Shown here: in pieces, positions 7,423-50,016 of the stretch
How positions within the stretch are numbered: the first letter of the stretch is position 1
Layout: each line of letters starts with the position of its first letter
Origin: Actinomycetota bacterium
Lineage (GTDB): Bacteria; Actinomycetota; CADDZG01; WHSQ01
Assembly: GCA_009377815.1 (NCBI GenBank)
Contig: WHTI01000007.1
Location: forward strand, 1 to 53,570
Direction: 5' to 3'
DNA length: 53,570 nucleotides
The notes under the pieces: model-generated
Told to the model about the DNA's origin: nothing
The model's database searches: none
The model's input: only the letters and a program-made list of their open reading frames with translations
Position numbers and translations under genes: made by a program

Positions 7423-9057
7423 ATGGCACCAGGCAACGAACGCGACGACGCGAGCCCTAAGGGCCTCAGCCGTCGCCACTTCATAACGGTCGGCTCTGCC
7501 GGCGTCGGAGCGACGCTGCTGTCCGCGTGTGTCTCCAATCCGATCGTGATGTCGGACAACGGTCAGGCGCAGGACGAACAGAAGATCATCACCGACCGCG
7601 AAACCCGAAGCTTCAATCCCATCCCCGAGGAGAACGCCAAGCCCGGTACGACGGACTGGGAGCTCGAGGGACGCGTCGACGGACGCATCCAGGGCTTCGC
7701 CGGCAACATCTCGGTCAAACAAGGCGAGAAGGTAACCCTTTACGTCACCGCCCCGGCCGGAACGGCCTGGAAGGGCGAGGTCTACCGGATCGGGTGGTAC
7801 CGCGGAGCCGGGGGTCGACTGGTCACCACCATCGCCGACAAGTCCGGGGTCGGTCAGAAGCACTTCAAGTACATGAAGGGTGGCAACGACAACCTCATCG
7901 AGTGTCCGTGGAAGCCGTCGGTCGACGTCAAGACCGACAAGTCTTGGACCACCGGCGTCTATCTCGTGAAATTGATCACCAACGACGGCTCGATGAGCTA
8001 CATACCGTTCATCGTCCGGGACGATCGCCCCAGCACTTACTTCAACCAGACCAGTGTCACAACATGGCTCGCCTACAACACCTACGGTGGGCGGAGCATC
8101 TACGGCGACATCAAGACCGACCACTACAAGAAGGCTTTCACGGGCCGCTCGCGGCTCACGTCGTTCGACAGGCCGTTCTCGATGGAGGAGCGATTCCTAC
8201 TGAACGGCGCCGAGCGCTTCCTTGAGTTCGAGATCCAGATGGTTCGTTTCATGGAGAGTCGCGGATACGACGTGACCTACGGAACCAACCTCGAGACCCA
8301 CCGGAACCCCGAACTCATCGCTCAGCACGACACGTTCCTGTCGGTGGGCCACGACGAGTACTGGACCAAAGAGATGCGCGACAACCTCGAGCTGATCCGG
8401 GACTCCGGTGTGAACCTCTGCTTCCTCGGGGCGAACGCAGGCTACCGAGCGGTCCGCCTCGAGGATTCACCGATCGGTCCCTTACGCAGGATGCGTCACT
8501 ACAAGGAGTACACCGAGGATCCCTTGCTCGGCAAAGACGACCCTCGAGTGGCGGCGCAGTGGCGCTATGGACCGACCGACCGGCCCGAGAACGCCTTGAT
8601 CGGGATCATGTACGCCGCCGACCCGGTGGACTTCCCCTGGGTCGCCGCCGCCACGGACCACTGGCTCTACCGTAAGACCGGCTTCACCAAGGGAGAGAGC
8701 GTCCCCCACCTCGTGGGCCACGAGTACGACAAGGCCTGGACCGAGGGTGCGTTCGCGAAGACGACCCCTCAGAACCTGCAGATCGTGGCGCGCTCACCGG
8801 TACGCACCGAACAGGGCGGCAAGGACGTTGCGCACAGCGCGTATCACACGGCCCCCTCGGGAGCCGGCGTGTTCGCAACCGGAACCATCCGCTGGACCTG
8901 GGGTCTGGACGGCTACGGGACCGGGTCCAATGTGACCACGCACTATCACAACCCCGGCATCGTCAGCCCGAAGATCCAGAAGATGACCGAGAACCTCCTC
9001 CATGTCTTCTCCCAGGGCCCGGCGGGCAACTACCTCGAGATCAAGGGACTCGCCTAG
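7423..9057 (+). CDS. Tat-exported lipoprotein with N,N-dimethylformamidase beta-subunit-like domain
   Basis: A 544-residue protein. Residues 16 to 20 (SRRHF) form a twin-arginine motif before a hydrophobic stretch that ends in a lipobox-like LLSAC, so it should be folded, exported by Tat and anchored outside the membrane. The mature part matches the C-terminal domain of the N,N-dimethylformamidase large subunit: an N-terminal beta domain (EVYRIGWYRGAGGRLV), then TWLAYNTYGGRSIYG, SVGHDEYWTKEMRDNLE, FLGANAGYRAVRLE and RWTWGLDGYG. The fold includes a glutamine-amidotransferase-like core. No small-subunit gene is adjacent, so dimethylformamide hydrolysis is not assured; many actinobacterial copies have no known substrate. 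A bidirectional-looking terminator follows 80 bases after the stop. Confidence 0.8.
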   Translation: MAPGNERDDASPKGLSRRHFITVGSAGVGATLLSACVSNPIVMSDNGQAQDEQKIITDRETRSFNPIPEENAKPGTTDWELEGRVDGRIQGFAGNISVKQGEKVTLYVTAPAGTAWKGEVYRIGWYRGAGGRLVTTIADKSGVGQKHFKYMKGGNDNLIECPWKPSVDVKTDKSWTTGVYLVKLITNDGSMSYIPFIVRDDRPSTYFNQTSVTTWLAYNTYGGRSIYGDIKTDHYKKAFTGRSRLTSFDRPFSMEERFLLNGAERFLEFEIQMVRFMESRGYDVTYGTNLETHRNPELIAQHDTFLSVGHDEYWTKEMRDNLELIRDSGVNLCFLGANAGYRAVRLEDSPIGPLRRMRHYKEYTEDPLLGKDDPRVAAQWRYGPTDRPENALIGIMYAADPVDFPWVAAATDHWLYRKTGFTKGESVPHLVGHEYDKAWTEGAFAKTTPQNLQIVARSPVRTEQGGKDVAHSAYHTAPSGAGVFATGTIRWTWGLDGYGTGSNVTTHYHNPGIVSPKIQKMTENLLHVFSQGPAGNYLEIKGLA

Positions 9058-9136
9058 CGAGAACCCAAGTCGTGCGCTCGTGGCCCGGACGCTATTCCCC
9101 CACTGTGGCTCCGATGCCCGAGCGCATGTACCCGAG

Positions 9137-9170
9137 AAGAGGCGGTCTTCGGACCGCCTCTTTCTTGTTT
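9137..9170 (+). terminator. Rho-independent terminator
   Basis: An 11-bp perfect stem (9137-9147 with 9152-9162) closes a TTCG tetraloop and is followed by TTTCTTGTTT. It ends transcription of the exported dimethylformamidase-like gene. It lies directly against the convergent tag stop codon and could partly serve both strands. Confidence 0.92.
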
Positions 9171-9171
9171 C

Positions 9172-9798
9172 CTAGCGTGGTCGGCGGAAACGTTCGCGAT
9201 CACGCTCGACCTCGTCATGGAACTCGCACCCGGTCACATGGTCGTTGACCACGCCCATGGACTCCATGAAGGCGTAAGCCGTAGTGGGACCGACGAAGGC
9301 CCAACCCCGCTTCCTCAGATCCTTGCTCAGGGCGATCGATTCGGGGGTCTTGGCCATCTGCATCAGGTCGTCCCAGGTCAATCTCCGTGGGCGGGACTTC
9401 GGATCCGGCTCGAACCGCCAGACGTAGGCCGCCAGACTGCCGAACTCCTCAACTAGCTTGGGATATCTGCGTGCGTTGTTGATCGTCGCTTCGATCTTGG
9501 CGCGGTTCCTCACGATCCCGGCATCCGCCATCAGGCGAGCCACGCTCCTGCTGTTGAAGCGCGCGATCGTCTCGATTTCGAACGATGCGAACGCACGCCG
9601 GAAGTTCTCGCGCTTGCGGAGGATGGTCAGCCAGCTGAGCCCGGATTGGAACCCCTCGAGGCACAGTTTCTCGAACAGACGACGGTCGTCATTCACCGGT
9701 CGGCCCCATTCGGTGTCGTGATAGTTCTCGTACAGGGGGTCACCGATGCACCAACCACACCGAGCGACACCATCGGCACCGATGTCGAGTCCCTTCAC
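9172..9798 (-). CDS. tag: DNA-3-methyladenine glycosylase I
   Basis: The 208-residue enzyme excises 3-methyladenine from alkylated DNA, the first step of base-excision repair. It shows the Tag zinc site (Cys in CGWC, His in YHDTEWG, and His/Cys in NDHVTGC) and the HhH-fold core with FEKLCLEGFQSGLSW and RGWAFVGPTTAYAFMES. I set the start at the GTG at 9798, which overlaps the stop of the upstream glycosylase gene (GTGA). The long open frame upstream of it only runs antisense-like through that gene in another frame. The overlap implies translational coupling in an alkylation-repair operon. Confidence 0.93.
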   Translation of the reverse strand: MKGLDIGADGVARCGWCIGDPLYENYHDTEWGRPVNDDRRLFEKLCLEGFQSGLSWLTILRKRENFRRAFASFEIETIARFNSRSVARLMADAGIVRNRAKIEATINNARRYPKLVEEFGSLAAYVWRFEPDPKSRPRRLTWDDLMQMAKTPESIALSKDLRKRGWAFVGPTTAYAFMESMGVVNDHVTGCEFHDEVERDRERFRRPR

Positions 9799-34543: not shown

Positions 34544-36610
34544 CTATCTCAGGTGCACTAAAAGATTGCCGAAGGTGTCGACGACGGCCCGGTCCCCCGG
34601 CAGTACGAGAGCCGATGTCTCCCGAGCCTCGACGATGGCTGGCCCGTCAATCTGGTTCCCTTCCCCCAGCCGGTACCAGTCGTAGATGGGGCAGTCGACG
34701 TAGCCGCCCTGCTCGGGGAAGTAAGCTGGCCGAGAACCTGTGCGAGCAAGCGCTGTTCCCTCTCTCTCGGCCACCTGCCGTTCCAGTCTGATCTGGGGCG
34801 TTTCGCCCAAAGCAAGTAGTCGCCAGTTAACGACCTCAATGGGAGCTTCAGCATTCTGGAATCCGTAGCGCTCTTTGTAGACCGCCTCGAAGTTTGTCCG
34901 CATCTCCTTGACAGTCGTCTCGTCGGCCGCGCCGTCCGGCAGGGGTACAGTAACCTCGTAGCCCTGCCCGGAGTAACGCATGTCGGCCGATCGCTCAAAG
35001 GTCGGTGTGCCCCCATGAGATTCCTCGAGAAGGTCTCCTGCCGTACAAGTCATCTCACCGTAGATACGGTTTAGCTGTTCAGGCGAAAGCTCGTCGAGGA
35101 CGGTCACGAAAGTTTGCACCAAGTCAAAGCGAGCACCTGCGATAAGAAGGCCGAGCGCGGAGTTCACGCCAGCGTTTAGTGGAATTAAGACACGCGGCAC
35201 GCCCAGTTCCTTGGCCAAGTGGCAAGCGTGGATCGGCCCGGCCCCCCCGAAAGCAACTATGGTCAAGTCGCGCGGGTCGTGCCCTCGGCGGATGGTGGCC
35301 TCACGCATGGCCAAGGCCATATTGGCGTCTACGACTTCGTGCACACCCCAGGCAGCCTGCTCGACAGTTAGTCCAAGAGGCTGACCCACTTTCTCTGCCA
35401 GAACGGTCCGGGCTCCTTCAGCGTCGAGCCCCATCTCGCCTCCGAGAAAGTAGTCGGGGTTCAGGTAGCCAAGCACTAAGTCAGCGTCCGTCACGGTACC
35501 GAACTGGGCCTGTCGCCCGTAGCACACCGGCCCCGGATCCGCTCCTGTGCTCTCTGGTCCTACGATGATAGTGCCTAGGCTAACTCTAGCGATGCTGCCG
35601 CCACCTGCCCCGATCTCGATCAGATCTGTTGCGGGGATGGAGAGAGGCAGACCACTCTCGGGAACTAGATCACGTCGATCGATCTCGAACTCGTCGGTGC
35701 TGGCCGGGATGCCCCTCTCGATCAAGCTGACTTTCGCCGTTGTTCCGCCCATGTCGAAGGAGATGACATCGCCAAGTCCGGCGGCTCCAGCCATGTGCGC
35801 AGCTGCAATTACGCCCGCGGCTGGCCCAGATTCGATGATGCGGACGGGAGCATCTTCTGCCACCGCAGCGGTTGTGGTGCCCCCGTTGGATTGCATGACG
35901 AAAAGGGCAGCGCCATAACCACGTGATTCTAGGTCTGCTCGCAAGCTCCGCAAGTACCGCTGCACTCGCGGCAAGATATAGGCGTTGGCCACGGTTGTAT
36001 TTGTGCGCTCGTATTCACGGTACTTGGGCGAGATCTCCGATGACAACGAAATTGGTAGCCCCTCTAGTTGCTCGGACAGAAGGCGACGAACGGACTGTTC
36101 ATGGATCGGATTCGCATAAGCGTGGAGAAAGCTGATGGCTACCGACTCGAAGCCCTGCTCCTTGATGAGAGCAGAGAGCTGCAGAATCTCATCCTCACTG
36201 ATCGGGATAAGAATCTCACCGTTGGAGCTAATGCGCTCCGTGGCTTCCTTGACATTGTTGCGGGGCACGAGCGAACGCGGTTTGTCCTGCATCATGTCGT
36301 AAAGGTTAGGGCGACGTTGGCGTTGGATCTCCAGCACGTCTCGAAAGCCCCGTGTTGTGATGAGCAAGGTTACTGCACCCTTGCGCTCGAGAATTGTGTT
36401 GGCTCCGATGGTCGTACCGTGAATTATCTGCGACACTTGCTGGAGAACGTTCGGTGAATCACCGAGCGCTGCGAGGAAACCTTGGATCACGCCGGTCGAA
36501 GGATCCGGGCTCGTAGTCGGTGTCTTCCACATCTTGACTCGGCCAGATTCCGCTTCGTGGAACACGAAATCCGTGAATGTTCCCCCGATATCTACTCCGA
36601 TCCGCATCAT
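34544..36610 (-). CDS. hyuA: Hydantoinase A / 5-oxoprolinase alpha subunit
   Basis: A 688-residue ASKHA-fold ATPase that phosphorylates a carbonyl or amide to start ring opening. I see the phosphate-1 loop IGVDIGGTFTDF, IIHGTTIGANTIL, the FDMGGTTAKVSLI phosphate-2 loop, and GAGGGSIARV. DPGPVCYGR and VAFGGAGPIHACHLAKE are conserved further on. It pairs with HyuB as a heteromer in the cytosol. A palindromic operator candidate sits about 150 bases upstream of the start, and similar sites lie before the importer and the GntR operon. The start is ATG-ATG, so 36607 is equally possible. Confidence 0.93.
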   Translation of the reverse strand: MMRIGVDIGGTFTDFVFHEAESGRVKMWKTPTTSPDPSTGVIQGFLAALGDSPNVLQQVSQIIHGTTIGANTILERKGAVTLLITTRGFRDVLEIQRQRRPNLYDMMQDKPRSLVPRNNVKEATERISSNGEILIPISEDEILQLSALIKEQGFESVAISFLHAYANPIHEQSVRRLLSEQLEGLPISLSSEISPKYREYERTNTTVANAYILPRVQRYLRSLRADLESRGYGAALFVMQSNGGTTTAAVAEDAPVRIIESGPAAGVIAAAHMAGAAGLGDVISFDMGGTTAKVSLIERGIPASTDEFEIDRRDLVPESGLPLSIPATDLIEIGAGGGSIARVSLGTIIVGPESTGADPGPVCYGRQAQFGTVTDADLVLGYLNPDYFLGGEMGLDAEGARTVLAEKVGQPLGLTVEQAAWGVHEVVDANMALAMREATIRRGHDPRDLTIVAFGGAGPIHACHLAKELGVPRVLIPLNAGVNSALGLLIAGARFDLVQTFVTVLDELSPEQLNRIYGEMTCTAGDLLEESHGGTPTFERSADMRYSGQGYEVTVPLPDGAADETTVKEMRTNFEAVYKERYGFQNAEAPIEVVNWRLLALGETPQIRLERQVAEREGTALARTGSRPAYFPEQGGYVDCPIYDWYRLGEGNQIDGPAIVEARETSALVLPGDRAVVDTFGNLLVHLR

Positions 36611-36772: not shown

Positions 36773-36920
36773 TCCCGTCAACTGGATTGAACACACCTGA
36801 AACGGAATGCGTCAATTGTGTCGAGGAGCTAACCCTGCGCCAGAGGCGCAAGAGCGGAAGAGGTCGCACCGAGATCCCACAACAGAGGAGAAGACCTCTC
36901 ACTAGCGGCTAGCTCGATCC

Positions 36921-37545
36921 CGAGGGGGACGAAAACTCTAATCAGGTCCCTGAGCGGCCTTTGCTAGGGTCCGGGCGCCTGGGACAACCCTCTAGACGGG
37001 AGAGAAACCCCCTTGATCCTGTCGTTCTGTTACCTCATGACTCGGGCGTTGCTCCGAGTGCTCCTTCCCCGTACCAAGTTCCGCGCTGCGACCGAGGCCG
37101 AGCTCTTGGTCCTGCGCCACGAGCTGGATATCTTGCGACGCCAGGTTGTACGACCGAAGTTGAACCGCCGCGATCGCATCCTGCTCGCCTCAGCCAGCCG
37201 GGTGCTCCCTAAGACCTCCTGGAGCACGTTTCTCGTAACGCCCCGGACGATCTTGCGATGGCATCGCGAACTCGTCCGGAGGAAGTGGACCGACCGGGAC
37301 CGAGCACCGGGCCGACCGCCCACCTCGCCGGAGGTGCGCAAGCTCGTGATCCGGCTCGCCAGAGACAATCCCAGGTGGGGATGCATGCGGATCAAAGGCG
37401 AGCTCAAGAAACTGGGAGTGGTGGTGGCGGTCTCGACGATCCGCTCGATACTTCGCACGCAGGCGTACCGCCGGCTCCCCGGAGGAGCGGGCCCACCTGG
37501 CGACAGTTCATCAGGGCCTGTGGCGCTGTTCGAGGTCAGCTGATA
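36921..37545 (+). mobile_element. rve-type IS relic, copy 1 (left end and transposase N-terminal half)
   Basis: The left end reads CGAGGGGGACGAAAACTCTA and is shared with copy 2 at 43449. A TTG at 37013 opens the transposase: AELLVLRHELDILRRQV, RRDRILLASASRVLPK and TPRTILRWHRELVRRKW. Next comes LARDNPRWGCMRIKGELKKL, the last part before the catalytic domain. Near 37470 a frameshift moves APRRSGPTWRQFIRA to another frame and the gene breaks off. The integrase catalytic domain is missing. Confidence 0.8.
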
Positions 37546-37850: not shown

Positions 37851-39059
37851 TTAGAACTCTCGCACTGCGTGCCAGCGTCGCTCCCACTCGGCTACGCGAT
37901 CTAAGTCACGTTGATACGGCTTGCCTGTCTGGATCGCATAGTCGACGCGATTGCAGATTCGGTGAGCCAGCCGGACGTTGTCGACGGTTAGTTTGCCGTC
38001 GTCCTTCTTGAGGACCGGGTAGTGATCTGGGGTCGGCATCCAGTCAATCGGAGGGTGCACCTTCCGCTCGAAGTAATGTCGACCACCAGCTCCCTCGGGG
38101 CAAAGGCACGTTGGCATGCTGCATGCGACTTCTTTGATCCGTCCCTGTTCGGCGGCTTTGAGTAGCACACCTTTGACGCCGACATATCGGAGGGCATCCA
38201 CAATGGCAGCGCGACGGGCGACAGTCGCATCCCAGAACCGTCGCTGTTTGGGCCATTCCTCAGCTTCCAGGATACGCGCGTTTGTGGCCTCGTCGTTGAA
38301 CAGGACTTTGTAAACATGTCCGGCCTTCAAGACGAGTCCGGTGTACCCATAATCGACGAGCTGGTGGTCAGGACTGGCCTCGTTCACTACCTCGTAGATG
38401 TGCTTGGAGACGCGGTTGCGACCCACCTGTTTGTCGGTCACGATCCGGATGAACTCGGTTTGGCCGCGCGGTCTGATGCAGCCTTCTGTGACTTCGAGCG
38501 GACTCCACTTCCGTCGGACCTGTTGGTGGTCAATCTTGGTCTTGAGAATGCTCTTTGCCGCTCTCTTTGCTGCCTTGTCAACGCTCTTCGCGTATTCGCC
38601 CTTCTTTCCGGGAATCCACGTCGGCACTACGCGGAGTCGGTGCCGCTGGTTTGCACGGTTACATAACCTGCGGAGCTCCATCCACTGCCGGACGTTGTCT
38701 ACAGGGGCACCGCCACTTCTGTGCCATTTCGTGTTCGGCCAAACTTTCCGGGCGTTGTATAGGTTGTCGACGAAGTAGCGCGAGTCGCTGTAGATGATGA
38801 TCTTGGTGACGTCGGCTAGATCAATGGGGGGATGCCGCCCAAGCGCCGTCTTCAGCGCTTGGATGGGAGCCTCCAGCTCCATCTGGTTGTTGGAGGCACC
38901 CTCGTGCGAGTAAGGGAACGGCTCGGTCTCGGACTGCTCATGACCGTGGGCGTCGACCCAGACGTGGCGGATGCCAAGCCCTCCACGGCGCGGGCCAGGG
39001 AGCGAGGAACCGTCGACGAAGATATTCAAGGCTGTCTCATCGATGAAATCAGGAATCAC
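37851..39059 (-). CDS. RNase H-like domain fused to an HNH-type C-terminus
   Basis: A 402-residue protein. Residues 8 to about 145 form an RNase HI-like domain: D16 in IFVDGSS, E61 in NNQMELEAPIQAL, D92 in IIYSDSRYFVDN and a fourth acid in KSVDKAAKRA. All four carboxylates of the two-metal site seem present. A central 150-residue part is unrecognised (HIYEVVNEASPDHQLVDYGY). The last 90 residues have a CSMPTCLC cysteine pair, PDHYPVLKKDDGKLTVDNV and RLAHRICNRVDY, an HNH-like pattern with D-H, N and H residues. It could cut RNA in hybrids and DNA, and lies in a group of nuclease-like genes. A defence role is inferred. Confidence 0.7.
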   Translation of the reverse strand: MIPDFIDETALNIFVDGSSLPGPRRGGLGIRHVWVDAHGHEQSETEPFPYSHEGASNNQMELEAPIQALKTALGRHPPIDLADVTKIIIYSDSRYFVDNLYNARKVWPNTKWHRSGGAPVDNVRQWMELRRLCNRANQRHRLRVVPTWIPGKKGEYAKSVDKAAKRAAKSILKTKIDHQQVRRKWSPLEVTEGCIRPRGQTEFIRIVTDKQVGRNRVSKHIYEVVNEASPDHQLVDYGYTGLVLKAGHVYKVLFNDEATNARILEAEEWPKQRRFWDATVARRAAIVDALRYVGVKGVLLKAAEQGRIKEVACSMPTCLCPEGAGGRHYFERKVHPPIDWMPTPDHYPVLKKDDGKLTVDNVRLAHRICNRVDYAIQTGKPYQRDLDRVAEWERRWHAVREF

Positions 39060-39194
39060 AGTTGGCCCCTGGACGTGGGAGTCGCCGTTACCTACGATCG
39101 TAGACCCGAGGAATGAAGCGTCCCAGTGAACATGCTTCGCCTAGAGTCAGCTTGCATCTAAGGATATGTTCAACAGTGTAGGGAAGGTCGAACA

Positions 39195-40133
39195 TTGCCG
39201 AGCAGAGCTCGCCGCTCATTCGATGAACTCAGTCACGACGTTGAGAAACTCATGTCATATGACCCCGTCGGTCCCGGCGGCGGTAAACGTATCGAGAAGA
39301 CGGAGGTGCTCAACAAGTCTGCAATCGTTCTGCTTACGGCCTTCTGGGAGGCTTACTGCGAAGATCTGGCGGTCGAAGCAGTCAGCCATCTGGTCGAGTT
39401 TGCCGAGAGCGCTGAAGAGCTCCCACAAAGGCTAAGAGAGCGCGTGGCTCGCGAACTCCGAAAGGAACGCGACGAACTCAGCGTCTGGCGGCTTGCGGAT
39501 GACGGGTGGAGGCGCATGCTCCGAGTCCGCCTCAGAGAGCTCCAGAAGAAACGCAACTTGCTCATGAATACACCGAAATCATCGAATGTCGATTACATCT
39601 TCGACAACTACCTTGGGGTCCCTCATGTCTCAGAGGCGTGGCACTGGCAGGGCATGACGCAAGAAAGTGCGTGCAAGAAGCTGGATCGAATGGTGACGCT
39701 ACGAGGAGACATAGCGCATAGGGGGTCAGCCGCCAAACCCGTATCGCGAGCGGTTGCAAGGGGTCACCTCAAGCATGTACGGCGCATAGTAGGCAAGACC
39801 GGCGGGGCAGTTAACTCAGTCCTAAGAGATTCAACCGGAGTGGGCTTGTGGGAGCCAATGCTTGTCCGCGTTATGGAGCGTGTTACGGGCGACATCTTTA
39901 CTGCCGCGGAGGTGAACCGGGCCCTAGACACCCTGACGACTAGTCAAAGGGAAGTCATATCGCTGAGATTTGGGCTGCATACCCGGAGCTCCATCACCCA
40001 TCCTTCCGACAAGCCGGAGCAACTCATGAAGCTTGACGAAATCGCCTCCATGCTGGGAGTAACGTCCAAGCGAATCCGGCAGATTGAGTCTGCGGCGTTG
40101 CGCAAACTCCGTGCCTTCCAAACGGACCAGTAG
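39195..40133 (+). CDS. RiboL-PSP-HEPN-like domain fused to sigma-70 region 4
   Basis: From TTG 39195 (GGGAAGG upstream) it has 312 residues. The first 190 are helical with LNKSAIVLLTAFWEAYCEDL and the HEPN-type R-x4-H motif R170/H175 (LRGDIAHRG), as in RNases and in abortive-infection proteins. The C-terminal 70 residues are a clear sigma-70 region 4: ALDTLTTSQREVISLRFGL, then LDEIASMLGVTSKRIRQIES and AALRKLRAF. There is no region 2, so it is not a working sigma factor alone. It may bind -35 elements or RNA polymerase and bring a HEPN RNase to them. I know of no standard family with this order. Confidence 0.72.
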   Translation: MPSRARRSFDELSHDVEKLMSYDPVGPGGGKRIEKTEVLNKSAIVLLTAFWEAYCEDLAVEAVSHLVEFAESAEELPQRLRERVARELRKERDELSVWRLADDGWRRMLRVRLRELQKKRNLLMNTPKSSNVDYIFDNYLGVPHVSEAWHWQGMTQESACKKLDRMVTLRGDIAHRGSAAKPVSRAVARGHLKHVRRIVGKTGGAVNSVLRDSTGVGLWEPMLVRVMERVTGDIFTAAEVNRALDTLTTSQREVISLRFGLHTRSSITHPSDKPEQLMKLDEIASMLGVTSKRIRQIESAALRKLRAFQTDQ

Positions 40134-40180
40134 GGTAATCGTGGGGCCGCTTGCTCAGTCTGTTGAGCCGAGGAGGACTA

Positions 40181-40387
40181 CTAGTCCTCGGCGTGGTCGG
40201 TGAACAGGGGTCCGACCTGACCTCGATCGGTTCGTTTGAAACAAGCCTCTCTGTTGGAGCAGGCGACCACGCCATTGTGTTGGCTGCCATCGTGCAAGGT
40301 GATATCTGCTAGCTGGAACAGCCTAGTACCGACGCGACCGCAGATGAGGCACTGCCGGACTGGCTGCTGGCGTGGCTGGAAATGCAC
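40181..40387 (-). CDS. Small cysteine-rich protein, possible zinc binder
   Basis: A GTG at 40387 starts a 68-residue protein. QCLICGRVGTRLFQLADITL and VVACSNREACFKRT carry a CxxC and a CxxxxxC pair that could hold one zinc. Codon use looks like real coding. It lies convergent to the HEPN fusion gene. Similar short proteins are often found in actinobacteria without assigned function. Confidence 0.5.
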   Translation of the reverse strand: MHFQPRQQPVRQCLICGRVGTRLFQLADITLHDGSQHNGVVACSNREACFKRTDRGQVGPLFTDHAED

Positions 40388-40600
40388 CCCGCGAGCTTGC
40401 TGAAAAACGCTGGCTCCCGAGGACTCCGGACCAGCGAGCCATCCTTCCTCGTGTTACTCGTGGCCCACGTGCCATCAGATGAAGAATAGTCGAACCCCGG
40501 CGGCAGCCGCCGGAGCTAGACGGAAGGTGGCCGTCGAACGTGAAGGCTGGCGGGAAGGGCCTCGAGAAGGCACGCCTCAGTTCAGAACGGAGGAAAGACA
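40388..40600. other. Short leader region of the 40601 gene
   Basis: About 210 bases with no supported gene; it should carry the promoter of the following pair. A GGAGGAAAG ribosome-binding site ends it, just before ATG 40601. Confidence 0.4.
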
Positions 40601-41614
40601 ATGCTGGCTTACCAGGTACGCGATCGGGTGCTTCGCACAGAACCAGAGGGCACCAAGCTCAGGTTTCCCAACGATGTAGAGGTAGCACTACATTTCACCC
40701 CTGCCTCCGCCTTCGGAGGTGTAGCAAAGAAAGGACGAACGGTTGGGCGGCAATCTGAAGCAACTCTTCGGTGGGACGCGAACACGGGGCGGCAATACGT
40801 CTTTAGCGCCACTCCTTTGGATCCTGCAGATGTCGCTGCTCAATCGGGCCGCTACAAGGTGCGGTTCAGAGCGAATGTATTCACCTGTCAAACTCGAGTC
40901 GACGATAGAAACGGGTTGCAGCACCTTATAGAGACGCTGGCCTACGTGCTGCCTCCTCTCTTGAACGTCGACATGTTGGACTCCGTGACCTTGGATCGCG
41001 TCGGTGGCTCCGTGGGCGGAACTTCGTTCCCATGGGAGTTGTCGCGCAGCCTGCCAGGCAATTTCGAAGTCACGACAACCGATGAGCAAGAGCAACGACT
41101 AATGGGCGCGTGGGAACGATTGACCAGTATCGAGGATGAAGATCGCAGGATCGTCGCGGCACTTCAATACTTTTACGTCGCCTGCCGTCTTGAGAGAGTC
41201 GGGTCCTCCCCTTGGGAGTTCCTTCCCGAAATCGTGTTGAATCTCGCTAAGGTCCTCGAGGCGTTGTTCCCACCATCATCCGAGCAGGGAACGATCGACG
41301 CGGCGAGACAGGGCTTGCAGCAGTTGGGATATCCGGCGGATGAGGTCGACCGAGACTTCATCCCTGCCATCGCCTTGCGAAACAGCCTGGACGCGGGTCA
41401 CGCAAGCCTCGCGATCTTCGATGCTGCCGACTTAGCCGAAGTCCATACGGACTGCGAACGCGCGGAACCGACATTCAGGGAAATGCTGCGGCGTCTCTTG
41501 GCGGCAGCCGAAAGCGGAACCGTGTCGTTGGAACCATTTGGGAACACGGAACCTTCAAAGGATGTACTCAAAGTTCTCGAGCGCATCAGAACAGCGAACG
41601 AGCGAAACCCATGA
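40601..41614 (+). CDS. Hypothetical protein with C-terminal HEPN-like motif
   Basis: A 337-residue protein with a strong GGAGGAAAG ribosome-binding site. The first 170 residues are beta-rich (LRFPNDVEVALHFTPASAF, YKVRFRANVFTCQTRV) and the last 150 helical. In the helical part ALRNSLDAGHASLAIF contains R260 and H267 (R-x6-H), like ApeA-type HEPN ribonuclease domains. The next gene, a nuclease-like protein, follows on the same strand. The pattern suggests a two-gene defence module, but homology to ApeA is only by motif. Confidence 0.6.
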   Translation: MLAYQVRDRVLRTEPEGTKLRFPNDVEVALHFTPASAFGGVAKKGRTVGRQSEATLRWDANTGRQYVFSATPLDPADVAAQSGRYKVRFRANVFTCQTRVDDRNGLQHLIETLAYVLPPLLNVDMLDSVTLDRVGGSVGGTSFPWELSRSLPGNFEVTTTDEQEQRLMGAWERLTSIEDEDRRIVAALQYFYVACRLERVGSSPWEFLPEIVLNLAKVLEALFPPSSEQGTIDAARQGLQQLGYPADEVDRDFIPAIALRNSLDAGHASLAIFDAADLAEVHTDCERAEPTFREMLRRLLAAAESGTVSLEPFGNTEPSKDVLKVLERIRTANERNP

Positions 41615-41777
41615 GGCCTGGTTTGCCCCATTCACGCGCCAGAGAACCACGGCTGAAGGCGGGGCCATGTGGTCCCCCCTGCCCTACGCAGCTTACGACC
41701 AAGACTTGCGCTACGGACAGCGCCTATGGCAAGGACGAGTGGCCGGACGCGGCAACAGACGCGGCAACATAGGGAGC

Positions 41778-42977
41778 ATGGCGACGATTCCGGACTACGG
41801 AAGGCTGGGAGAGCAACGGGTCGGCAAGGCGGCCGGCGCGTGGGGCTTGCCAGACTTCGTCTATCAGCCGATCGAGGTCGACAAGGGTGGCGCGCGCCGC
41901 GAGGTCGGAGATCGGCTCATCTGGGTGGGAAACCAGATCGCAATCGTGCAAGTCAAGACTCGCTCATCGCCTGGCGACTCCGAGGATCGTGGGCGCGCCT
42001 GGCTCAACAGGCACCTCGCCAGAGCGAACCGACAGATCAACGGGACCTATAGGACTCTCTCCTCACCACCGAGCGACCTCGTCCTACGATCGGATCGTGG
42101 GGTCGAGGTTCCCTGGGACGCCAGCGTGGTGACTTCGTACTGCGGGGTGGTGGTAGTCGATTACGACCGCCCAATCAGATACGAGCCTCACCTCGATCAG
42201 TTGAAGGTGGCGACCATCGCGATGGTCGCTGACGACTGGGAGCTCATCACGTCGACACTGATCAGCACCGCGTCACTGCTGAATTACATCATGTGGCGAG
42301 CAACGGTTGGCGTGACGATCTCGCTGGGTCATGAGGACTACCTCTTGAAGCAGGTGCTGACCGCTGAGACGCGCGGTGAAAGGGCGAAGATCGATGCCGA
42401 CGGCCTGATCGCGGGACGTTGGGTAACAACCACCGATGAACCTTCCGACGCCGTCTTCGGATCAATGTCGGATCATCAATATGCCTTTGTCGTGAACGAG
42501 ATGATTGCCGGGGCGGCTGAGCAAGAACGCGAGTTCTCAACCTTCCGGGAAGCTCACGAATACCTTCACATCATCGAGTTCCTCGACCGGATCCCACCAA
42601 TGCACCGTGTGGAGTTCGGCAAGCGCGTAATCGCCAAATGCCAGGAAGCAGGCCGGACCAACAAGGCCCAGTCGAGCCTGCTGAGGACGGTTTCGGGACC
42701 TCTCGTCTTCGTTGCCCACCCCGGTCCAAGGGAGAAACGCGTCCATTGGCTGCGGAACCTCGTTCTTGCTCGTCATACCCAACTACAAGACGCGTTGAGC
42801 GGGCAGCAGGTAACCACACTGGGGGTGGCGACAGACCCCGTGCCAACAGCTGGGCGCTCGCATGACTACGTCTTGTTACGCGGACAGCTGCAACTTGAGC
42901 CCAATGAAAGGACACGACGCGACAAGATGTTCGGTGAGTTCCCAGGCGAGATTGAGATGTTCAGAGCAACCGATTGA
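41778..42977 (+). CDS. PD-(D/E)XK-like nuclease domain protein
   Basis: I prefer ATG 41778 (GGGAG just upstream) over longer starts, giving 399 residues. Residues 5 to 75 look like a restriction-endonuclease fold: LGEQRVGKAAGAWGLPDF, then D45 in REVGDRLIWVGN and IAIVQVKTR with Q58-V-K60, as in Mrr-type enzymes where Q replaces the E of ExK. The remaining 300 residues are unrecognised and helical. It lies 163 bases after the HEPN-motif gene. DNA cleavage is inferred. Confidence 0.62.
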   Translation: MATIPDYGRLGEQRVGKAAGAWGLPDFVYQPIEVDKGGARREVGDRLIWVGNQIAIVQVKTRSSPGDSEDRGRAWLNRHLARANRQINGTYRTLSSPPSDLVLRSDRGVEVPWDASVVTSYCGVVVVDYDRPIRYEPHLDQLKVATIAMVADDWELITSTLISTASLLNYIMWRATVGVTISLGHEDYLLKQVLTAETRGERAKIDADGLIAGRWVTTTDEPSDAVFGSMSDHQYAFVVNEMIAGAAEQEREFSTFREAHEYLHIIEFLDRIPPMHRVEFGKRVIAKCQEAGRTNKAQSSLLRTVSGPLVFVAHPGPREKRVHWLRNLVLARHTQLQDALSGQQVTTLGVATDPVPTAGRSHDYVLLRGQLQLEPNERTRRDKMFGEFPGEIEMFRATD

Positions 42978-43448
42978 ACGCTCGATCTTCCCGTAGGACC
43001 CAACCGGCTTGCGTGAGTGATGGGAGCGAGGAGAGTTCGCTGGTGGCGTGAAGTCGAGGCTCGCCACGAGCCGCCAGCGTTCCCAAATCAAGGAATTCCG
43101 TTCCGAGATATCTGAAGGCGGTGCTCTGACCAGGGCGGATGAGGTTTTCGACCGCCCCCACGAGGGCGGGGGCTGCAGAAAACGTGGCAGAAAACCTCTT
43201 GAAAAACAGCCTGCAGCGCCTCAAGTCTAGTCAGGGAGCGTGGGGTACGCGGAATACGCGTGATTGCGGTGTCGGAACCGAGCTGAGGGTAGCCTTCGGC
43301 CTGCCGGTGCGGCTGTTGGTGGTGACTGGAGGGGCCACGCGGCTGTGGGGGCCGCTCGAGCATACAACCGCACGCGTTCAGCCTTCTGGTCGTACAACCA
43401 GCAGTTGTAGCGATGTGCCATTAGGAGGACGACGTTGTCATCAGAAAC
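42978..43448. other. Non-coding stretch with hairpin and att-like repeat
   Basis: About 470 bases with no gene I can support. A stem made from CGCTGG-TGGCG and CGCCA-CGAG-CCGCCAGCG near 43038-43080 may end the nuclease transcript. The att-like repeat at 43162 is listed separately. Open frames here have no protein-like features. Confidence 0.45.
43162..43196. repeat. Second copy of the tRNA-leader att-like repeat
   Basis: 29 of 35 positions match 16327-16361, including GAGGGCGGGG at the tRNA end and two AGAAAAC boxes. The tRNA part stops after eight bases, so no tRNA is encoded here. It is 26.8 kb from the first copy. Confidence 0.45.
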
Positions 43449-43931
43449 CGAGGGGGACGAACACTCTGATCAGGTCCCTGAGCAGGGCCTTTGCTAGTGT
43501 CTGGGCGCCGGGACGACCCTCTAGACGGGAGAAACCCCGCTTCCTCCTCTCCCGGAGGATGCAAGCTACGTTGACGAGATCAACCACTACATCCACGACG
43601 GCGTGTCGCCAGGAACGTGATGAGACGAACCGCCGCCTGCCCATCACCTCCTGATCGTCTCTCGTAGGCACCTCGACGCGGTCCTCGCCGAGTTCGTGCG
43701 CCACTACAACCGGGCACGGCCGCATCGCGGGTTGGAGCTCTTGACGCCGGAGCCCCGTGTCAGCGTCACTCCAACCAAGCTCGTTCCTCGGTTCAGGACG
43801 AGGAAGGTCCTGGGCGGCCTCATCAACGAATACGAGATTGCGGCATGACCGCGCCGGGATCATTGCCGCCGTGGGGAACAATGGGGCGAAAGTGCTGGTC
43901 AGGATCTGTATCAGAGTTTTCGTCCCCTACG
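43449..43931 (+). mobile_element. rve-type IS, internally deleted copy 2 with both ends
   Basis: The left end (from 43449) matches copy 1; the right end reads AGAGTTTTCGTCCCCTACG (43913-43931), whose complement repeats the left end, giving terminal inverted repeats of about 20 bp. Between them only the last 60 codons of the transposase remain (LDAVLAEFVRHYNRARPHRG, then RFRTRKVLGGLINEYEIAA, stop at 43848). It is thus a 483-bp non-autonomous, MITE-like derivative. Confidence 0.8.
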
Positions 43932-45118: not shown

Positions 45119-45427
45119 TCATGGGCTTGGTAGTAGAGCTCTACTAACTTTGGTTCCTTCGATGTACGGTCGTCGGCCCCCGGTGTCCGCGTCGAGAACC
45201 CTCGCAACGCACGCCCCCTCGACCGACGCTGCGCTCTCGGCCTCACGCGCGAAACGACTGCGGAACTGCGGGTCATCAGCAAGTTCGGGCCGGATCATCT
45301 TGAGACCACCAATGACCCCTCTCCTTCTGGGCGAGGTAGACAACGCCCATGCCCCCGCCACCGAGTGGCCGAGGATTCGGTATCCGGCAATCCTTCTTGT
45401 AGTCCGTTCCGCTTTCAAGCTACGCAC
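45119..45427 (-). pseudogene. PknB-type Ser/Thr kinase fragment
   Basis: IAGYRILGHSVAGAWALSTS is a decayed glycine loop; LKMIRPELADDPQFRSRFAR retains the ATP lysine and alphaC start, and ACVARVLDADTGGRRPY is the next strand. This covers just the first 90 residues of an actinobacterial kinase. The GxGxxG is broken and the catalytic loop absent, so it is a dead fragment. Confidence 0.8.
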
Positions 45428-45548: not shown

Positions 45549-46190
45549 CTAGTTGAGACGAGATGAAGATTCTCGATCCATGCTCGAGCCCCAGTTGTCG
45601 TAGAAGGACTCCAAGCGGTCGACCGCGAGGCGCTGGGAGCCGGGGAGCACGTGGCTATAGAGGTTCAGGGTCACGACGACGTCGCTGTGGCCGAGGCGCT
45701 CCTGTACCGAGCTGATGCTGGCTCCGGATTCGAGCAGGTGCGACGCATGGGTGTGGCGGAGGTCGTGGAACCGTATCCGTGGCACCGGGCTGGCGCAGAC
45801 GAGGCCCCGGAACTGCCGGGTAATCAGGTTCGGTACAACCGGAGCGCCGTTGCGATCGGTAAACACGAAGTCATCTGGGTTGCTCTCAGGCCTCAGATTC
45901 TTAGACTCCTCTCGATGCGCCTTGAGCACCTCGACCGTCTCTTCTTCGAGATCGATCACCCGAGACTGCGACGACTTCGGTGCGGTTAGATAGGTACTGG
46001 TCCCGGCGGTGATCAGGGCCCGCCGGACCGCAAGCAACCGGTCCTGGAAACGAAGGTCCCGCCACTGAAGCCCAAGCGCCTCGCCACGTCGCAGCCCGGT
46101 GAACCCGAGCGTCCGCCACAACGGGAACAGACGATCGCTACGTGCCCACTCAAGGAAGACATGCAGCTGCCCGGGGTCCAGATCCTGATC
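45549..46190 (-). pseudogene. Tyrosine integrase, catalytic domain only
   Basis: The open frame after a TGA at 46191 encodes DPGQLHVFLEWARSDRLF and the full catalytic half: R in GLRRGEALGLQW, HDLRHTHASHLLES, GHSDVVVTLNLYSHV with the tyrosine. The N-terminal arm and core-binding domains are missing, so it probably cannot recombine. It marks a second old integration event near the right side of the accessory region, about 29 kb from tRNA-Arg. Confidence 0.82.
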
Positions 46191-46477: not shown

Positions 46478-47437
46478 GTGGCTCGCTCAGATCTCCTGAT
46501 CGATCTTGTCGAGGCCGAACGTCGCGGCGACAAAGCGAAGTTCCGCGCTCTCGTCGAAGCAATAATTGCCGAGGAGCGCTCCAATCAGCATCACCTGGTA
46601 GCGGACCGCTTGTCCGAGCTCATCACTACGATGGGTTCCTCAGAGCTGCTTCGTGACGAAGCTTCTTCCCGCATCAACGATCTGCTTCTGGATCTCGTAC
46701 CTCAACGCAGACTTGGCTCTCTGCAACTGTCGCCACCGGTCTTGGCTTCGGTCGAAGAGCTTATCGAGGAACACCAACGGACTGACTTGTTGCGAAGTTA
46801 TGGGCTGGAACCCCGGAATCGCGTGCTCCTTGATGGGCCTCCAGGTAACGGGAAGACGAGCCTGGCAGAGGCGATTGCTGCTGAGACCATGGTGCCTTTC
46901 TACGTTGTTCGTTACGAAGGCGTCGTTTCTAGCTTTCTCGGGGAGACCGCGGGCCGACTGGATCACGCGTTCGAATTCGCGAGGACTCGTAGATGCGTCC
47001 TGTTCTTTGACGAGTTCGACACGATTGCGAAGGAACGTGCAGATATCCATGAAACCGGTGAGATCAAGCGGGTGGTTTCGACGCTCCTCCTACAAATCGA
47101 CCGACTCCCGGCCCACGTAATCGTCGTGTGTTCCACGAATCACTCTGAGCTTCTGGACAGGGCGGCGTGGCGGCGCTTCCAACTTCGTCTCGAACTCGCA
47201 GCTCCGTCGCGCGCGGATGCAACTGAGTTCCTGGAGACATTGAAGACCCGCCTCGGAGGTGATCTCGGCCTGGCTCCGAGGACATTGGCAGACAAGCTCG
47301 CGGGTGCCAGCTACGCGGAGCTGGAGCAGGTTGCGATCGATATCCGACGTCGTCTTGTTCTCGCACCGCCGGATGGAAACCTGGGTGAGATCGCGAGGAC
47401 AAGGATCGAGCAGTGGCGGACCCAAGCTCATCCGTGA
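46478..47437 (+). CDS. AAA+ ATPase of an ATPase/subtilase defence pair (IteA-like)
   Basis: A 319-residue protein from a GTG. The N-terminal 95 residues are helical. The AAA+ core shows Walker A GPPGNGKTS (K126), Walker B CVLFFDEFDTI (D178, E179), sensor 1 in VVCSTNHSELLD and an arginine finger region in AAWRRFQLRL. It is like the proteasomal/FtsH-type classic AAA proteins. It overlaps the subtilase gene by 25 bases, so the proteins should act together, for example with the ATPase gating the protease. Such pairs are reported as anti-phage systems; I recall the name IteA/IteS but could not check it. Confidence 0.82.
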   Translation: MARSDLLIDLVEAERRGDKAKFRALVEAIIAEERSNQHHLVADRLSELITTMGSSELLRDEASSRINDLLLDLVPQRRLGSLQLSPPVLASVEELIEEHQRTDLLRSYGLEPRNRVLLDGPPGNGKTSLAEAIAAETMVPFYVVRYEGVVSSFLGETAGRLDHAFEFARTRRCVLFFDEFDTIAKERADIHETGEIKRVVSTLLLQIDRLPAHVIVVCSTNHSELLDRAAWRRFQLRLELAAPSRADATEFLETLKTRLGGDLGLAPRTLADKLAGASYAELEQVAIDIRRRLVLAPPDGNLGEIARTRIEQWRTQAHP

Positions 47438-50016
47438 CGGACCCACGACCCCTACTGGCATTTCCGCCACCGCAGACAGGGCCTATTCCTGCTGCAACGA
47501 GTCCGACTCCGTATAGACCGGTCCAGGGTCCGAGCGCGGGCCGTCAAGGGACAAGACTGACTCCTCAGTTTCAAACTCTTCGGGTGGCGCTTGAGGCTGA
47601 GCGCGCGCAACTTACGGAACAGACGGGATCTCCGGAACCGGAGTTGGTTGCCGTCTTTGACCTGGCAGGGACCGTGGAGGCTTTCATGCGGGCGGCCGCG
47701 CTGGTAGATGGGCTCGAGTTCTTGTCTGAGTTGCAGGAGGACAAGGTTGACGCTGACGACGATTTTTTCTACGAGGCTGATGGCGAGACACAAGATGACA
47801 AAGTTCCTCAGTCGCTCTACATGGTGATGACGAATGCCCAAGCGGTGACGGAACTAGTTCGATTGTTCGAGCTCTGGCAAGAGGACCAGTCCATCACTTT
47901 CGAGCGGGGTCTAAATCCTTTGAAAGGGGTTTTCGGTCTGCTGCGGGCGATCCGTCGATGGGGTCCAGAGGATCGGGTTCGCGAGACGGGATTGCTGGAA
48001 CAGTGGCGTGAAGACGTTGCCGTTGGGCAGTCGATAGCCCGAGTCGAGATTGAGCTGTGGTACCGCGACGACCCAACATCGCGAACCGCTGCTCAAGAGC
48101 ACGTGGCAGACATCGTTCATTCGTCTGGTGGGACGGTGCTAAAGAGTTCCGACCAGGAGGCTATTGCCTATCACGCCGTGCTTGCAGACATCCCGATGTC
48201 GCAAGTGGAACAGGTCCTAGCGCGCGGTCCAGAGGCGATTGAGCTCCTGACAACGGAGACTGTGATGATCGTCAGCCCAAGTCGCCCCATGACTTTTCCG
48301 GCCACAGAACCGACGGTGGCAGATCAACTTCGCTTCGATACGACGCTTCCAGAGGGCCGACCCCAAGTTGGATTGCTTGATGGGGTCCCTCTTGCCAATC
48401 ACGTCTGTCTACAGGGCCGACTCATCGTCGACGACCCGGACGATCGAGGTGAAAAGTACGCCGTCGGGCAGCTTAATCATGGAACGTCAATGGCGTCTCT
48501 GATCGCTCACGGCGATCTGCTCGACCCAGGACCCTCATTACGGCAACCGATCTACGTTCGCCCCATCCTTGAACCGCATGAACATTTCCGAGAAGAACGG
48601 GTGCCTCCAGATGATCTGCTTGTGGACCTGGTGCATCGAGCGTTCCATCGCATGTTCGAAGGCGACGGCGCCAACGATCCCGCGGCATCGAGCGTTCGGG
48701 TCGTGAATCTATCTGTGGGCGACCCGACCCGAGTTTTCATTCGGCGACTTAGCCCCCTCGCTCGGTTACTGGATTGGCTTGCCCACGTGTACAACCTCGT
48801 CATTGTCGTGAGCGCCGGTAACCATATGTTGGTAACGCCGACCCTCGTGACTGAAGACCTTTCGGATGTACCGTCGCTCCAATCGACGGCGGCAAGATCG
48901 CTCTACGAGCGAGCCCGGCACCGACGGCTGCTGTCTCCGGCAGAAGCCATAAACGCGTTGACTATCGGCGCGCTCCATGAAGATGCGGCAGTTCAGGAGC
49001 TTCCTGCCACTGTGGTTGACGTCATAAAGGCGGGGACTCCAGCGAGCTATTCCCCCGTGGGATACGGGTTTCGCCGGTCGGTTAAGCCAGATGTCCTTCT
49101 GCCGGGGGGCCGGGTGATCTACCAGGCCCCTGTTGCGGAGGCCGGTAAGCCCGTGGAGTTGGACGCTGTTCTCACTCCAGCGACCGGTCCCGGCCTGCGA
49201 GTTGCGGCGCCTGGACGAGGTGGGGAGCTAACAGGAACCAGCTTCACGAGTGGAACGAGCAACGCAGCTGCACTGGCTACGCGAGCTGTCTCGAACATCC
49301 TGGACATGCTCGCAGGTCTGACGCAGGAGGACGGAGACTTTCCGTTCCCAGATGCGCAATACCATCCCGCCCTCGCCAAAACGCTGCTCGTGCACGCGAG
49401 TGGATGGCACGATCTCCTAGGCACGATGCGCGATGACCTGGGCCTTTCCGGTCAATCGATTCGGAGGGAACTGACACGCCTACTTGGTTATGGACCAGTT
49501 CATCCCGAGCGGATAGCAACAGCTGATCGGGTCCGGGCCGTGTTGCTTGGAGCGGGTTCCATCAACAAAGATCAACGGCACTCATTTCGGTTTCCCTTGC
49601 CGTCTGACTTGTCGGCCTCGACCGAGTGGCGCCGGTTGACCATTACTTTGGGTTGGCTCTCGCCCGTAAGCGTACGCACACAGAAATACCGCATGGCGCG
49701 CCTGAAGTTCACCGCGCCAAGGGATGATCTTGCTATCGCTCCGACCGAGGCGGACGCCAATGCAGTTACGAAGGGGACTATTCAGCATCAGGTGTTGGAA
49801 GGGAGTTCGGTGGCGGCATTTGCAAGCGGCACTAGCCTGTCAATCGACGTCGACTGTCGAGGCGAACTCGAGCGCTTCCCCAGTCCCGTGCGCTACGCCC
49901 TCGCCGCCTCGCTGGAAGTCTCGCCAGAGGTTCAGATTGATGTCCAGGCCCAGGTTCGAACATTGCTTCGAGCGGAAGTACGCGAACGGGCACGGGCACA
50001 GGTTCCGGCCCGATGA
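47413..50016 (+). CDS. Large S8 subtilisin-like protease (IteS-like)
   Basis: An 867-residue protein with no signal peptide, so probably cytosolic. An N-terminal 310-residue regulatory region precedes the S8 domain. The triad is D323 (QVGLLDGVPL), H356 (LNHGTSMASLIAHGD) and S616 (GTSNAAALATR), with the oxyanion-side region near VVSAGNHM. A C-terminal 200-residue beta-rich domain follows. Being intracellular and coupled to an AAA ATPase, it is likely a regulated protease released on infection. The start is a GTG inside the ATPase gene. Target proteins are unknown. Confidence 0.85.
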   Translation: MADPSSSVTDPRPLLAFPPPQTGPIPAATSPTPYRPVQGPSAGRQGTRLTPQFQTLRVALEAERAQLTEQTGSPEPELVAVFDLAGTVEAFMRAAALVDGLEFLSELQEDKVDADDDFFYEADGETQDDKVPQSLYMVMTNAQAVTELVRLFELWQEDQSITFERGLNPLKGVFGLLRAIRRWGPEDRVRETGLLEQWREDVAVGQSIARVEIELWYRDDPTSRTAAQEHVADIVHSSGGTVLKSSDQEAIAYHAVLADIPMSQVEQVLARGPEAIELLTTETVMIVSPSRPMTFPATEPTVADQLRFDTTLPEGRPQVGLLDGVPLANHVCLQGRLIVDDPDDRGEKYAVGQLNHGTSMASLIAHGDLLDPGPSLRQPIYVRPILEPHEHFREERVPPDDLLVDLVHRAFHRMFEGDGANDPAASSVRVVNLSVGDPTRVFIRRLSPLARLLDWLAHVYNLVIVVSAGNHMLVTPTLVTEDLSDVPSLQSTAARSLYERARHRRLLSPAEAINALTIGALHEDAAVQELPATVVDVIKAGTPASYSPVGYGFRRSVKPDVLLPGGRVIYQAPVAEAGKPVELDAVLTPATGPGLRVAAPGRGGELTGTSFTSGTSNAAALATRAVSNILDMLAGLTQEDGDFPFPDAQYHPALAKTLLVHASGWHDLLGTMRDDLGLSGQSIRRELTRLLGYGPVHPERIATADRVRAVLLGAGSINKDQRHSFRFPLPSDLSASTEWRRLTITLGWLSPVSVRTQKYRMARLKFTAPRDDLAIAPTEADANAVTKGTIQHQVLEGSSVAAFASGTSLSIDVDCRGELERFPSPVRYALAASLEVSPEVQIDVQAQVRTLLRAEVRERARAQVPAR

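Follow-up and report, generated by a model that had tools for sequence, protein, structure and literature searches.

A RiboL-PSP HEPN–sigma-70 region 4 fusion gene in a probable defence-island cargo block beside an IetAS operon

Positions 37851–42977 of contig WHTI01000007.1 (Actinomycetota bacterium, GCA_009377815.1), of which a window of 53,570 nucleotides (nt) is the whole stretch of DNA analysed here, hold four neighbouring genes, here called A to D, and a small Cys-rich open reading frame (ORF). An earlier sequence-only reading had proposed these genes as a new multi-nuclease defence system. The block is probably defence-island cargo instead, made up of independently acquired genes lying between two relics of one insertion sequence and beside an IetAS operon. 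Gene B within it joins, by sequence, a RiboL-PSP HEPN protein to a sigma-70 region 4 (sigma-4) domain, a fusion which appears to be new for this HEPN family and is found in one genome only. The island and IetAS are of already known kinds; what is new in B is the combination of domains, its HEPN family being known. The ORF listing returned all five ORFs at or close to the positions first proposed, each with coding-type guanine–cytosine (GC) content by codon position. Three of the supposed four nuclease-like genes keep that description, A and B by profile and D by motif alone, while the motif of C is at chance level.

The relatives of these genes do not travel together. Those of B were sought by a scan of ~85,000 species genomes (29 loci, with up to 8 kb of flank) and in plasmids, viral contigs and genomes of the same phylum, and ~38 HEPN, 20 RNase H, 11 HNH and 9 D loci were compared. 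None of the 121 loci fetched outside the window holds two of the A–D families, and no A, C or D lies near the HEPN relatives of B in the fetched loci. Viral contigs gave no match when queried with the single proteins A–D; queries with alignments returned three HEPN relatives and otherwise just RNase H proteins of the ordinary type, and the D alignment found no match there. A single system is therefore not supported, since the relatives are separate and never together in this sample. The sequence-only reading had itself named homologues occurring independently and never together as the pattern that would speak against its proposal of a conserved set, and this is the pattern found within the sample.

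In a single system, B would be the RNase effector, A and D would process nucleic acids, and C would be a sensor or second effector. Such a system is very unlikely here. Dense packing within one insertion-sequence bracket, the divergent arrangement of A and B across 135 nt, the shared strand of C and D and the adjoining IetAS operon are all consistent with it, but two of the families occur together in no fetched locus, B relatives are solitary in ~38 loci and the neighbours of D relatives are varied. Several points nevertheless weigh against independent acquisition. Only a sample of genomes was covered, and loci of just 3–4 kb are frequent among those fetched, so that a rare conserved A–B or C–D pair could escape; C, having no relatives, stands outside the co-occurrence test; the gap of just 135 nt between the divergent A and B makes co-regulation possible; and both fusions (A and B) are known from one assembled genome.

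The limits of the block are set by a direct repeat of 104 nt with 87% identity (36920–37023 and 43448–43551), which brackets A–D in the same orientation. The flanking transposon relics described in the sequence-only reading are confirmed as two damaged copies of one insertion sequence, sharing this repeat and retaining a transposase N-terminal fragment on the left and a C-terminal fragment on the right, where the inverted end lies at 43886–43927. No further copy was found in the rest of the same genome. The bracket looks like a decayed composite-transposon arrangement, and we infer that the whole block moved by transposition. The ATPase/protease operon reported 3.5 kb from the block is IetAS, IetA and IetS giving near full-length PADLOC matches and their genes overlapping.

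The surroundings of B relatives also support the defence island proposed earlier, together with the insertion-sequence relics on both sides and IetAS. The 117 ORFs neighbouring HEPN relatives matched 129 PADLOC models at 1e-10, including PglX, DrmMII, MzaE, ZorD, DruM, Mads and type I/II/IIG restriction-modification, and six phage integrases were found among them by Pfam; the relatives are surrounded by restriction-modification, BREX, DISARM, Zorya and MZA-type genes and by integrases. As a control, 113 ORFs were drawn from arbitrary parts of same-phylum genomes, and they matched 37 models, for the most part those of UvrD-type helicases and homing endonucleases, although this contrast is qualitative because the taxonomy of the control differs and model counts are not gene counts. 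B is likely to have a defence role, as its HEPN relatives lie beside defence genes and integrases. An IetA relative and a B relative (1480–2394 and 8001–8654) also lie ~6 kb apart in a locus from the Planctomycetota (L069), the second such proximity.

Both domains of B are above their Pfam cut-offs (HEPN_RiboL-PSP, 2.6e-13, 50.7 bits against a cut-off of 28.4; Sigma70_r4, 1.1e-13), in agreement with the HEPN-sigma architecture first suggested for it. R170, G171, I173 and H175 are invariant across an alignment of 29 sequences, and the start is also conserved. The predicted local distance difference test (pLDDT) of the B model is >90 across most of the HEPN part, and its nine best structural matches are HEPN proteins (Z 8.7–7.2, scores that helical bundles can reach by chance), the closest being MntA-HepT and HEPN/MNT toxins (Z 8.7–8.1), which are described as known RNase toxins (PMC7641770). 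No sigma-4 structure is among these matches, that part of the model being of low confidence, and Foldseek alone found no significant match for B in the PDB or among viral models. Relatives with listed ORFs are single HEPN genes, mostly of 197–266 amino acids (aa), and no sigma-4 fusion was seen in B-relative loci from species genomes, plasmids, viral contigs or the same phylum; the sigma-4 domain of B starts right after the end point of all HEPN relatives. A Cupriavidus plasmid match to B proved to be an ordinary sigma factor. One relative, from the same class as the genome of the window (L019, 1301–1962), is split over two frames and so may be a decayed gene.

Fusions seen once each, in a single assembly of 485 contigs, could in principle be assembly or sequencing artefacts joining adjacent genes, for A as well as for B. 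This is most improbable, given that both reading frames are open end to end, that codon-position GC is even over the junction in B, and that the fusion joints coincide with the ends of the relatives.

The sigma-4 domain of B has an ~11-residue insertion relative to RpoD (the Escherichia coli and Staphylococcus aureus matches are shorter by that length) and keeps the recognition-helix core RIRQIE. The positions of R584 and E585, two of the main −35 contacts of E. coli sigma-70, are changed to S and K in B, and ordinary −35 recognition is therefore doubtful. Sigma70_r4 is the sole sigma region above the Pfam cut-off in B, where region 2 (core binding, −10 element) was not recovered; lacking regions 2 and 3, B cannot act as a sigma factor.

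B may be pictured as a toxin-type HEPN endoribonuclease which would be switched on by infection and would then cut RNA and arrest the infected cell, as proposed for its AbiD/AbiF relatives. Its sigma-4 domain would serve for docking or regulation by binding DNA or else the RNA-polymerase flap, and might either repress its own divergent promoter or put the nuclease near transcription; such docking, or autoregulation of the divergent A–B promoter region, is its likely role. A long shot is that B senses phage by means of a built-in decoy, in which sigma-4 would mimic the part of sigma bound by phage anti-sigma or polymerase-takeover proteins, and in which binding of a phage protein, or lost polymerase docking, would turn on the HEPN RNase and stop the infected cell. 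It is also possible, though less likely than not, that B alone matters, as a single-gene abortive-infection or toxin gene with a sigma-4 tail that is just autorepressing and with the other genes as passengers. This would be a narrower version of the cargo-block explanation and is compatible with it. It gains from the single HEPN genes that make up all relatives, from the retained RIRQIE core and from the divergent A–B promoter region, and loses from the fact that relatives manage without a sigma-4 domain. It also speaks against it that no operator was identified. The scan recovered no sigma-70-type consensus promoter between A and B, and its consensus promoter and terminator matches did not exceed chance.

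Gene A is a second fusion as judged from its sequence, joining an RNase HI plus middle-domain protein to an HNH-like protein. The combination is new, is seen in one genome only and unites two proteins that are separate elsewhere. The RNase H–HNH assignment made earlier holds for the RNase H part, while the C-terminus is HNH-like. The RNase H part is well above the Pfam RNase_H cut-off (2.6e-19, 70.3 bits against 25.8) and matches PHROG RNase H at 1.9e-20, and its DEDD residues D16, E61, D92 and D161 are invariant in comparison with the two closest relatives. The HNH-like end falls below the Pfam HNH cut-off (14.5 bits against 21.4) and matches a PHROG HNH family at 3.6e-5, with C35, C40, C42, H68, N83, H88 and C91 (alignment numbering) kept in 3 sequences. 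A structure model from the single sequence (pLDDT 35) gave no identity for the middle domain. Elsewhere the RNase H plus middle part is a gene of its own (~270–277 aa), and relatives span either this part (L021, L119) or the HNH part only (L016, L078). A is predicted to cut RNA:DNA hybrids, and probably does; a defence role for A, as for D, would be a guess.

HNH relatives of A occur alone, next to an SSB gene identified by eye from sequence (L077 and L078). L078 additionally holds a TrwC-type relaxase (by eye) and a primase/polymerase-like ORF, which suggest an integrative conjugative element. The HNH relatives point to conjugative elements, and A has weak relatives among phage RNase H proteins (alignment searches of viral contigs). 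The nuclease genes, A foremost, might accordingly serve the replication or maintenance of a mobile element (RNA-primer or hybrid removal, homing) and not defence, a role to which the SSB neighbours, the relaxase of L078, the phage kinship, the insertion-sequence relics and a recombinase fragment near IetA would all be suited. We regard this as rather unlikely, because B relatives are enriched beside defence genes in comparison with the control and IetAS is close by; cargo of a defence island remains the preferred description of the block.

Gene D falls, on sequence grounds, into an unnamed family that carries a PD-(D/E)XK-type motif and occurs mainly on Streptomyces plasmids and in same-phylum genomes. 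Common to its relatives is E...REx(G/S)D...Q(V/I)K, spaced like a PD-(D/E)XK site, and D45, Q58 and K60 are invariant in 7 relatives. The PD-(D/E)XK site claimed for D stands as a candidate, by a motif kept in relatives, while no Pfam or NCBIfam profile matches. D probably cuts DNA, and it most likely starts at 41778 rather than 41538. Its relatives occur singly, with varied neighbours. A distant one (24% identity, 92% coverage) is found in an unannotated human-gut phage record (MT835530.1, 11221–12363), and another locus (L082) has a short ORF (9133–9468) which bears a SEC-C-like CPCGSGQRFKRCC motif and runs, in another frame, across the start of the D relative.

Gene C gave no profile match in Pfam, PADLOC, NCBIfam or PHROG, and searches of plasmids, viral contigs, 246 genomes and PDB sequences found no relative of it. 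The HEPN motif once attributed to it is R-x6-H, and it carries no evidence because R-x4-6-H is present in 69% of shuffled C sequences. The small Cys-rich ORF is probably a genuine gene; it weakly matches phrog_4550, a small phage family (E 3.1e-4), and neither plasmids nor 198 genomes yielded a relative.

The features are collected in Table 1. The ground between D and IetA also holds a C-terminal fragment of a tyrosine recombinase (Pfam; 45549–46121, −) and a short ORF (45119–45427, −) which, on inspection by eye, looks like the N-terminal end of a serine/threonine kinase and has no Pfam match. A hydantoinase/oxoprolinase-type gene (34544–36610, −), with four more relatives in the same genome, adjoins the block.

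Table 1. Features of the A–D block and its flanks (positions in the window).
Feature	Coordinates	Strand	Description	Evidence
Gene A	37851..39059	-	402 aa; RNase HI (residues 9–168), uncharacterised middle domain (~180–280), HNH-like C-terminus (~281–391)	
A/B intergenic region	39060..39194	.	135 nt between divergent genes; possible shared promoter	Coordinates
Gene B	39195..40133	+	312 aa, TTG start; RiboL-PSP HEPN (~1–220, motif R170GDIAH175) and sigma-70 region 4 (~239–307)	
Small Cys-rich gene	40181..40387	-	68 aa, CxxC...CxxxxxC	Coding-type codon-position GC
Gene C	40601..41614	+	Orphan, 337 aa, C-terminal RNSLDAGH motif	Strong ribosome-binding site
Gene D	41778..42977	+	399 aa, motif E...D45...Q58xK60	Alignment of 7 relatives
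Left insertion-sequence relic	36920..37543	+	Left end and transposase N-terminal half, IS481/IS630-like	HTH_32 6.8e-10 (Pfam); NCBIfam IS481 2e-10, partial; 104-nt repeat
Right insertion-sequence relic	43448..43927	+	Left end, transposase C-terminus (HYNRARPHRGLELLTPE) and inverted right end	
IetA (neighbour, outside A–D)	46478..47437	+	AAA ATPase of IetAS	PADLOC 9.7e-143
IetS (neighbour, outside A–D)	47413..50016	+	S8 protease of IetAS	PADLOC 9.4e-290

Were B to act in the way proposed, it would tie a widespread HEPN RNase family to the transcription machinery, and infection would have a testable trigger route. The rest of the locus cautions against assuming that nuclease-like genes crowded into an island form one system, and a simple co-occurrence survey was enough to separate A–D here.

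The earlier statement that A–D match no named system agrees with PADLOC, which gave no system-level match; the members of IetAS lie at 46478–50016, and A–D are its neighbours. RiboL-PSP HEPN proteins (PF18735) are distant kin of AbiF/AbiD found in operon with ParB, for which suicide via RNA cleavage has been proposed, and their recorded fusion partner is endoRNase L-PSP (Anantharaman et al., 2013; PMC3710099). B matches this family above its cut-off and has the Rx4H motif, but instead carries sigma-70 region 4, absent in every relative found here. The same survey records DUF4145 HEPN proteins with a SIGMA-HTH fusion (PMC3710099, Table 1), which like B combine a HEPN RNase domain with a sigma-type helix-turn-helix, although DUF4145 is another HEPN family than that of B. 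MzaA of the MZA system, a defence protein with sigma-70 region 4, gives the C-terminal part of B its best NCBIfam match, but just ~70 B residues match (44.7 bits against a cut-off of 800), and PADLOC matched no Mza model to A, C or D. For A, one candidate was PDC-S70, a candidate defence gene coding for a PIN nuclease (PMC12988326), which was set aside as its PADLOC match is weak and partial (residues 263–312, 50/161 positions, 24.5 bits); A has RNase H and HNH instead of PIN, for which Pfam gave no match. BrxL is another defence protein with a SIGMA-HTH domain (PMC12839542), and such domains recur in defence proteins, namely the DUF4145-HEPN fusions, BrxL and MzaA.

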